Assembly (NCBI GenBank): GCA_016870795.1
Contig: VGAJ01000001.1
Coordinates: 62,001 to 126,000, forward strand
From: Actinomycetota bacterium
GTDB taxonomy: Bacteria > Actinomycetota > Actinomycetes > Nanopelagicales > Nanopelagicaceae
Length of the DNA: 64,000 nucleotides
Reading direction: 5' to 3'
Each line of letters begins with the position of its first letter. The stretch's first letter is position 1. Below are positions 40,108 to 42,239 of the stretch, one piece after another. The notes beneath the pieces are model-generated. The model was not told the origin of the DNA. It searched no databases and was given only the letters and a program-made list of their open reading frames with translations. Position numbers and translations under genes: made by a program.

Positions 40108-40704
40108 CTACTTATTAGGAGCGGCCGAGGGGTCAATTACGGCCTTGGCCACCTCTTTCATTGAAATTCGCCGATCCATCGCAGCCCGCTGAATCCATGA
40201 GAATGCCTCAGGCTCTGAAAGGTTCAGGGCTTTCATCAAAATTCCCTTAGCTCTGTCAATTAACTTTCTACTCTCAAGTCTTTCGTGAAGGTCGCTAACC
40301 TCAAGTGCTAGAGATTTCATCTGTCTATGACGACTAATTGAGATCTCAATTGCTGGGATTAGATCATTTATTGTAAATGGCTTAACAACATATGCCATAG
40401 CTCCAGCTTCACTTGCCCGTTCAATTAAATCTTTTTGGCTAAATGCAGTCAGCATTAGAACTGGAGAAATCTCGATTATCTGACTAGCAGCAGAGATCCC
40501 ATCAAGGATTGGCATTTTCACATCTAGAATTGCTAAGTCAGGTTTTAACTCTCTTGCAAGATCAATAGCTTCTTGTCCATTGCTTGCCTGGCCAACTACT
40601 TCATATCCCGACTCACTTAGCATTTCAACTAAATCCATACGGATTAAAGTTTCATCTTCAGCAATAAGGATGCGATGGGATCCAGATTTAATATTGATAT
40701 TCAC
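40108..40704 (-). CDS. Response regulator with ANTAR RNA-binding domain (GTG start)
   Basis: RILIAEDETLIRMDLVEMLSESGYEVVGQASNG receiver; C-terminal ANTAR SRKLIDRAKGILMKALNLSEPEAFSWIQRAAMDRRISMKEVAKAV. Confidence 0.93.
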   Translation of the reverse strand: MNINIKSGSHRILIAEDETLIRMDLVEMLSESGYEVVGQASNGQEAIDLARELKPDLAILDVKMPILDGISAASQIIEISPVLMLTAFSQKDLIERASEAGAMAYVVKPFTINDLIPAIEISISRHRQMKSLALEVSDLHERLESRKLIDRAKGILMKALNLSEPEAFSWIQRAAMDRRISMKEVAKAVIDPSAAPNK

Positions 40705-40705
40705 G

Positions 40706-40778
40706 TGCCTCGAGTCGGATTTGAACCGACACTATGCGGTGTTTGAGACCGCCCTCTCTACCGTTGGAGTACCGAGGC
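40706..40778 (-). tRNA. tRNA-Leu(CAA), 73 nt, short variable loop, no encoded CCA
   Basis: GCCTCGG-TA-CTCCAACGGTAGAGAG-G-GCGGT-CTCAAAC-ACCGC-ATAGT-GTCGG-TTCAAAT-CCGAC-TCGAGGC-A. Acceptor, anticodon and T stems pair; anticodon CAA; D stem reduced to about 3 bp. Confidence 0.85.
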
Positions 40779-40799
40779 TAGATTTAATTGAAGATTATT

Positions 40800-42239
40800 C
40801 TAGCGATAGGCAGGAGCAACGCCACTAACAGCATCTCCCACCTTATGAACGCGCATCGCATTGGTTGAGCCAGGAATTCCTGGAGGGGAACCAGCAACAA
40901 TCATGATTAACTCACCAACAGCTACTCGCTTACTTTCAATCAAAATGGTATCTACCTGCTTAACCATCTCATCGGTAGTAGTAACTAACGGGGTTAGAAG
41001 GGGTTCAACCCCCCAAGTAAGTGCCATCTGGTTATAAGTAGCAGTATCAGGGGTGAGTGCCAAAATTGGAATCGGTGATCTAAGTCTTGACATTCTTCGC
41101 GCTGAATCCCCACTCTTTGTAAATGCCGATAAGACTTTTGCCCCAATTGTTAGGCCAACCTCAGTAGCAGCCTTTGTTATCGCCCCACCTTTAGTTTTTG
41201 GGTTGTGTTGCAAGGCTGGAATTAAATGAAGCGCTTCATTCTCAGTCTTTTCAATGATTCGAGCCATAGTTGATACTGCCTCAACGGCAAATGCTCCCAC
41301 GCTAGTCTCACCTGAAAGCATCAAGGCATCAGCGCCGTCAAGAACAGCATTAGCGCAATCTGTAGCCTCAGCTCTTGTTGGACGAGAGTTATTAATCATT
41401 GAATCAAGCATCTGAGTTGCAACAATTACTGGCTTTGCATTCTCCCTAGCAAGGGTGATGCATCGCTTCTGCACAAGTGGAATATCTTCAATCGGCATTT
41501 CAACGCCAAGATCGCCGCGAGCAACCATGATTCCATCAAATGTTAAAACTATCTCCTCTAGATTATCGACCGCTTGAGGTTTTTCAATCTTGGCAATAAC
41601 TGGAATGCGATGGCCCACCTCATCCATGATTTTGTGGACATCGTCGATATCTTTTGCAGATCTTACAAATGATAAGGCTATCAAGTCAGCGCCTGCTTTA
41701 AGCCCCCAGCGCAGATCTTCAATATCTTTCTCACTCATGGCAGGAACAGATACTGCAACTCCTGGAAGATTAATTCCTTTGTTATTGGAGACAAATCCTG
41801 GCTCAATAACTTTCGTTATTACATCGCTACCTTTTACCTCAATAACCTGAACTGTTACTTTGCCATCATCGATAAGGATAAGGTCTCCAGCCTTGCAATC
41901 ACCGGGAAGTCCTTTATAGGTAGTTGATACACGAGACTTGTCGCCAGCAATATCATCGGTGGTAATTGTAAAAGTATCTCCACGAACTAACTCATGAGGA
42001 CCGTTTTCAAATCTTCCTAGGCGAATCTTTGGCCCTTGAAGATCAACCATGATTGCAACAGGCTGCTTAACTCGCGCAGCCTCAGCCCTTACTAAATCTA
42101 GACGGTTTTGATGTTCTTCATATCCACCATGGGAGAGATTTAGCCTTGCCACATTCATTCCAGCTCGAATTAGCTCAGAGACTTTTTCAACGCTCTCAAC
42201 TGCAGGGCCCATGGTGCAGACAATTTTGGCGCGGCGCAT
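40800..42239 (-). CDS. pyk: Pyruvate kinase
   Basis: MRRAKIVCTMGPAVES...ARLNLSHGGYEEH...VARGDLGVEMP...MLSGETSVGAFAVEAV. Confidence 0.97.
   Translation of the reverse strand: MRRAKIVCTMGPAVESVEKVSELIRAGMNVARLNLSHGGYEEHQNRLDLVRAEAARVKQPVAIMVDLQGPKIRLGRFENGPHELVRGDTFTITTDDIAGDKSRVSTTYKGLPGDCKAGDLILIDDGKVTVQVIEVKGSDVITKVIEPGFVSNNKGINLPGVAVSVPAMSEKDIEDLRWGLKAGADLIALSFVRSAKDIDDVHKIMDEVGHRIPVIAKIEKPQAVDNLEEIVLTFDGIMVARGDLGVEMPIEDIPLVQKRCITLARENAKPVIVATQMLDSMINNSRPTRAEATDCANAVLDGADALMLSGETSVGAFAVEAVSTMARIIEKTENEALHLIPALQHNPKTKGGAITKAATEVGLTIGAKVLSAFTKSGDSARRMSRLRSPIPILALTPDTATYNQMALTWGVEPLLTPLVTTTDEMVKQVDTILIESKRVAVGELIMIVAGSPPGIPGSTNAMRVHKVGDAVSGVAPAYR

Follow-up and report, generated by a model that had tools for sequence, protein, structure and literature searches.

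A class I tRNA-Leu(CAA) at the pyk-ANTAR locus of Nanopelagicaceae and related leucine tRNAs without a long variable arm

To our knowledge, every bacterial tRNA-Leu is taken to have a long variable arm. By the usual division, a class I tRNA has a variable region of 4–5 nt, whereas that of a class II tRNA is roughly 10 nt or longer and forms a separate stem; a review of non-canonical tRNAs places tRNA-Leu in class II (PMC7609411), long loops are noted for tRNA-Leu-2, -3 and -5 of M. tuberculosis (PMC11541572), and a 2023 review holds that the long arm of tRNA-Leu is missing only in animal mitochondria. For leucylation in E. coli the determinants are A73, A15-U48, G18G19 and A20a, plus contacts between the D and T loops; the sequence and folding of the long arm are irrelevant, and tRNA-Leu variants that lack it remain active (PMC9976931). 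In the literature searched, the only published mention of a bacterial short-loop leucine tRNA that we found is a tRNA-Leu(TAG) in a cluster of Mycobacterium (PMC6582537).

Here we describe a 73-nt tRNA-Leu(CAA) gene with a 5-nt variable region, at positions 40706–40778 (minus strand) of a 64,000-nt stretch of DNA (the window) from a metagenome-assembled genome (MAG) of the freshwater actinobacterial family Nanopelagicaceae. It shares with bacterial class II tRNA-Leu (E. coli; Streptomyces bldA) the anticodon family, A73, U8-A14, A15-U48, G18G19, A20a and a 3-bp D stem with a 13-22 mismatch, as well as the chromosomal slot of the CAA gene in other actinobacteria, but differs in the variable arm (5 nt vs. 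13–17 nt) and in the core (A9, C12-G23 and C13 vs. G9, G12-C23 and G13 or A13). Animal mitochondrial tRNA-Leu(UUR) is likewise class I and recognised without a long arm, through A73 and A14 in the human case (PMC9976931); unlike it, the present tRNA has a canonical full cloverleaf, is encoded on a bacterial chromosome and is accompanied by class II isoacceptors for CUN. The Mycobacterium tRNA-Leu(TAG) differs in being an extra cluster-borne copy beside a normal class II gene. Very probably, the gene encodes a functional elongator tRNA-Leu that reads UUG without the long arm, is most likely charged by the ordinary bacterial LeuRS, has a re-paired core and is one of two alternative bodies at its locus, where one would have replaced the other in place. 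It appears to be one instance of widespread and hitherto undescribed class I leucine tRNAs of bacteria and phages; in the literature searched, which lies mostly outside subscription journals, we came across no paper that presents class I tRNA-Leu as normal for bacteria, although an older report may exist.

Structure of the tRNA and its D-arm core

ARAGORN called a tRNA-Leu(caa) at 40705–40778 on the minus strand, and the full Rfam tRNA model RF00005 covers 40706–40778 of the same strand (54.5 bits, gathering threshold 29, E = 4.6e–10). The CCA end is not encoded. The predicted fold is a cloverleaf without a variable stem (minimum free energy –26.4 kcal/mol, z = –2.7). The 5' strand of the acceptor stem, GCCTCGG (40772–40778), pairs with 40707–40713; A9 (40770) immediately precedes the D arm (40754–40769), which comprises a CTC/GAG stem of 3 bp, a C13-A22 mismatch, A14, A15, G18G19 and A20a. 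The anticodon arm GCGGT-CTCAAAC-ACCGC (40736–40752) and the T arm GTCGG-TTCAAAT-CCGAC (40714–40730) are, like the acceptor stem, apparent in both sequence and fold; the anticodon CAA, which reads UUG, lies at 40743–40745 according to the sequence and ARAGORN alike. Between these arms the variable region is ATAGT (40731–40735), whose 5 nt, including the U48 that pairs with A15, fall in the class I range and short of the class II range. The discriminator base at 40706 is A73, a leucine identity element (PMC9976931). All these features are on the minus strand. An earlier note on this DNA, made from the sequence alone, had given the arms, the CAA anticodon and the ATAGT variable region exactly, though with no strand, and its class I fold is confirmed by ARAGORN, RF00005 and folding. 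A plus-strand match to the Plastid-ycf2 model RF04354 (40705–40778), antisense to the tRNA, scored 28.4 bits against a gathering threshold of 65.7 and was dismissed as an artefact of tRNA-like sequence.

The same note had called the D arm weak. The CTC/GAG stem with its C13-A22 mismatch is real, but it is not a sign of decay: a D stem of 3 bp beside a purine-A mismatch at 13-22 is shared by class II leucine tRNAs, and the class I stem covaries. Parsing gave 121 distinct class I CAA/UAA tRNAs, in which pair 10-25 is GC in 84, UA in 20, CG in 15 and AU in one, and pair 11-24 is CG in 90, UA in 28, AU in two and GC in one; the thin D arm is therefore a maintained 3-bp stem. A73, U8-A14 and A20a occur in 121 of the 121, where the invariance of several D-loop bases is partly imposed for loci L131–L247, since the search pattern fixed them there while leaving A9, A73 and pairs 10-25 and 11-24 free; A15-U48 occurs in nearly all class I tRNAs, with G15-C48 in its place in three from a later, looser parse.

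The two classes differ in the D-arm core as well as in the arm. A9, C12-G23 and C13-A22 were found in all parsed chromosomal class I leucine tRNAs, and G9 and G12-C23 in all parsed class II leucine tRNAs, whose 13-22 is mostly G13-A22 or A13-A22. Direct pattern searches of 298 Actinomycetota genomes for mixed combinations returned no short arm with a class-II-type AGAC D arm, and only two matches, neither of them tRNA-like, for a long arm with an AGAG D arm. Because mixed combinations are absent from these genomes, we infer that core and arm length change together, for what would be tertiary reasons. Loss of the arm is accompanied by a re-paired core, with A9, C12-G23 and C13-A22 in place of G9, G12-C23 and purine13-A22, and such a core would probably stack in the class I manner.

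Leucine tRNA set, codon meaning and charging

Among 36 other family genomes searched by BLAST, 34 carry the 73-nt form at full length and 95–100% identity. An assembly deletion of the variable arm is thus ruled out, since dozens of separately assembled genomes have it almost unchanged. A class I CAA/UAA pattern occurs in 197 of 199 family genomes, including all 108 with completeness of at least 90% and contamination of at most 5%. No real class II CAA/UAA tRNA was found in the 199 genomes, where the single pattern match was not tRNA-like. The short form is thus fixed in the family, and both of its UUR-leucine tRNAs are short; that the UAA isoacceptor is also class I had been absent from the earlier note. 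A complete, single-contig relative (G024, loci L069–L130; 1,223,088 bp) has 38 tRNA genes, of which exactly four are for leucine, CAA and UAA of class I and UAG and GAG of class II, and the MAG of the window (1.05 Mb in 65 contigs, 79% complete) has the same four. Judged from these gene sets, UUG has class I tRNA-Leu(CAA) as its only cognate gene in the family; the lack of a backup rests on the relatives, the window's own MAG being only 79% complete. Together, class I CAA and UAA would make up the whole UUR-leucine set of the family, leaving CUN to class II tRNAs. A tRNA-Leu(CAG) was not found among the 38 tRNA genes of G024.

The meaning of the codons was assessed from alignments of window and G024 proteins with those encoded at high-GC actinobacterial loci, by tallying the residue and codon opposite each codon. 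In the window, the share opposite CUN leucine codons was 69% for UUG (n = 58 columns), 66% for UUA (n = 111) and 68% for CUN itself (n = 348); the corresponding values for G024 were 64%, 61% and 62%. Control codons for isoleucine, valine, methionine and phenylalanine aligned as themselves. By this measure, UUR codons are leucine codons in the organism of the window and in G024, so that the tRNA would have to carry leucine for proteins to be correct; with its CAA anticodon and with UUG aligned to leucine, it is a leucine tRNA by decoding. In those G024 ORFs that have 300 codons or more, UUG makes up about 18 of every 1000 codons, and a tRNA reading it is therefore needed. Every genome examined has one LeuRS above the family cut-off, of the bacterial type, which spans two contigs in the window's MAG. 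The identity set known from E. coli and human mitochondria (A73, A14, A15-U48, G18G19 and A20a) is present in full in the tRNA at 40706–40778. Since these determinants, D-T loop contacts included, are intact and the E. coli enzyme needs no long arm, charging by the ordinary bacterial LeuRS is most likely.

Two other readings of the short arm, both raised in the earlier note, have to be set against this one. That UUG might be decoded as an amino acid other than leucine gains some colour from the authors of tRNAscan-SE 2.0, who take absence of the long arm in a leucine tRNA as a mark of doubtful identity (PMC8450103), where the case in point is a human gene derived from tRNA-Met; with UUG and UUA columns matching high-GC actinobacterial CUN leucine as frequently as CUN columns do, and with A73 and the leucine core elements intact, we regard altered charging as highly improbable. 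Still less credible, indeed close to negligible, is a decaying copy whose work is done by an intact class II gene elsewhere. Its short variable region and thin D stem do look degenerate to the eye, but G024 has no other tRNA-Leu(CAA), none of the 199 family genomes has a class II CAA/UAA tRNA, the class I form is strongly conserved in the family, and the D stem shows compensatory changes; the lost pairing and absence of purifying selection that mark a pseudogene are thus not seen in a tRNA that is conserved in the family and whose stems covary. Nor did the close relatives have a long-arm fold at this locus, long-arm forms being met only in other actinobacterial families. The remaining suggestion of the note, a minimised leucine tRNA, is borne out by the short form throughout the family, the lack of a backup and the alignment of UUR with leucine.

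Beyond Nanopelagicaceae, class I CAA/UAA tRNAs were found in at least 110 of 398 Actinomycetota genomes and class II CAA/UAA tRNAs in at least 307, both figures being lower bounds because exact patterns miss variants. The distribution is a mosaic, in which class I UAA may be combined with class II CAA, class I CAA with class II UAA (a bldA-like family), or both may be class I. Named class I carriers include Mycobacterium, Nocardia, Gordonia, Rhodococcus, Corynebacterium, Bifidobacterium, Streptomyces, Microbacterium, Arthrobacter, Nocardioides, Micromonospora and Candidatus Planktophila versatilis; the last is among the relatives that point to the freshwater Nanopelagicaceae as the group of the window. 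UUA decoding through bldA has been studied intensively, and Mycobacterium and Streptomyces are among these carrier genera. A class I tRNA-Leu(UAA) was also seen on MAG contigs labelled Rokuibacteriota, Chthonomonadales and Neomegalonema (L145, L193 and L203), either real or a contaminant; the proteins of these contigs have no obvious actinobacterial look.

The pyk-ANTAR locus and the origin of the class I body

In the window, the tRNA lies 21 nt downstream of the pyruvate kinase gene pyk (40800–42239) and just upstream of an ANTAR response-regulator gene (40108–40704), all on the minus strand. The ANTAR gene lay within 400 nt of class I CAA in every one of the 43 loci that the family search and its distant matches gave, as well as in 37 of 41 named loci; it was never that close to class I UAA in the loci examined. 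The class II tRNA-Leu(CAA) of other actinobacteria occupies the same pyk-ANTAR slot, and in a Streptomyces-like genus (g32, assigned by its bldA-like tRNA) both classes are found about 170 nt from ANTAR. This arrangement shows class I and class II to be alternative bodies at what is, from gene order, one orthologous locus. A comparison of the window with L055–L061, L134–L140 and L294–L298 shows that the tRNA of Nanopelagicaceae has the same orientation as pyk and ANTAR, and that at this slot it is inverted in most other actinobacteria.

The junction of tRNA and ANTAR gene is tight. In the window the GTG start (40704–40702) begins 1 nt past the discriminator base, and in Nanopelagicaceae the junction reads GGCA-C-ATG or GGCA-C-GTG, with exactly one C between discriminator and start. 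The tRNA 3' end was located in 64 of 68 family genomes and was followed by CATG or CGTG in 54 of the 64 (loci L001–L067 and L133–L149); among distinct loci, ATG or GTG lies one C past the tRNA in 38 of 43, in frame in 36. Between this start and the conserved receiver motif there are 5–19 variable residues. At two loci (L030 and L067) the ANTAR protein begins MKILVAEDE, so the start codon there must sit one nucleotide after the tRNA. Actinobacteria translate leaderless messages. A cut after the discriminator base would leave an ANTAR mRNA beginning one base ahead of its start codon, and the junctions suggest that tRNA 3' processing may free a leaderless ANTAR mRNA in Nanopelagicaceae; the proposed release would resemble the tRNA punctuation of mitochondria. 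A scan with the sigma-70 consensus found no promoter near the tRNA. A weak candidate –10 element, TAGAAT (40797–40802, minus strand), overlaps the pyk stop codon, and by raw count 38 of 43 family loci have a TANNNT between –32 and –10 relative to the tRNA.

With both classes as alternative bodies at one orthologous locus, we infer that one replaced the other in place at pyk-ANTAR during evolution, in one direction or the other. Presence of the two forms at the same locus would also be expected if the resident class II CAA gene had simply lost its variable arm and so given rise to class I. By mean nearest identity, however, class I CAA resembles class I UAA (0.858) more than class II CAA (0.743). 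Once chromosomal class I CAA genes are set aside, the closest relative was a class I UAA in all 55 cases, and a tree of 281 leucine tRNAs separates the classes with two misplaced (support 0.93). These results favour replacement of the body, with a change of anticodon, and make simple deletion rather unlikely, in a comparison over 66–68 positions, which are few, and where the cores may have converged under structural need. Origin from another elongator tRNA through a change of anticodon was also considered and rejected: among the tRNAs of G024, class I CAA matches class I UAA best, at 38 positions, followed by those for Thr and Phe at 34, so that no outside donor is indicated.

Phage-borne forms and significance

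Short-armed leucine tRNAs are common in phages (L316–L395 and L431–L438). At least 115 IMG/VR contigs carry one, mostly UAA among the matches listed, and BLAST matches came from phages of Mycobacterium, Streptomyces, Gordonia, Erwinia, Salmonella, Escherichia, Vibrio, Synechococcus and Lactobacillus. ARAGORN found a short leucine tRNA in each of eight phage regions, with anticodon UAA, CAA, UAG, CAG or GAG. Those of mycobacteriophages and of Felix O1-like, Synechococcus, Lactobacillus and Erwinia phages have the same short arm and D-arm signature as the chromosomal genes, and are labelled plainly as tRNA-Leu where annotated. They differ from the Nanopelagicaceae gene, which is chromosomal and the sole UUG-cognate gene, in being mobile and supplementary and in extending to UAG and CAG anticodons. 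The tRNA-Leu(CAA) of Cronobacter phage S13 (L438, 476–552) has a short variable region with a class-II-type D arm (G9, AGAC), the sole exception that we met to the coupling of core and arm.

Phages could have carried the class I body between genomes, in one direction or the other. We put forward only as a tentative possibility that an overlooked, phage-carried class I lineage displaced class II CAA at pyk-ANTAR, possibly repeatedly, and that the Nanopelagicaceae gene came to serve as a processing signal for a leaderless mRNA.

The class I tRNA-Leu of Nanopelagicaceae contradicts the statement of the 2023 review that the long arm is missing only in animal mitochondria. A whole bacterial family has as its only UUR-leucine tRNAs two without a long arm, and many of its relatives have one short and one long isoacceptor. 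Together with the occurrence of both classes at one locus in one genus, this amounts to a natural experiment, both on the requirements of LeuRS and of the tRNA core and on how a tRNA may switch structural class while its identity stays unchanged.
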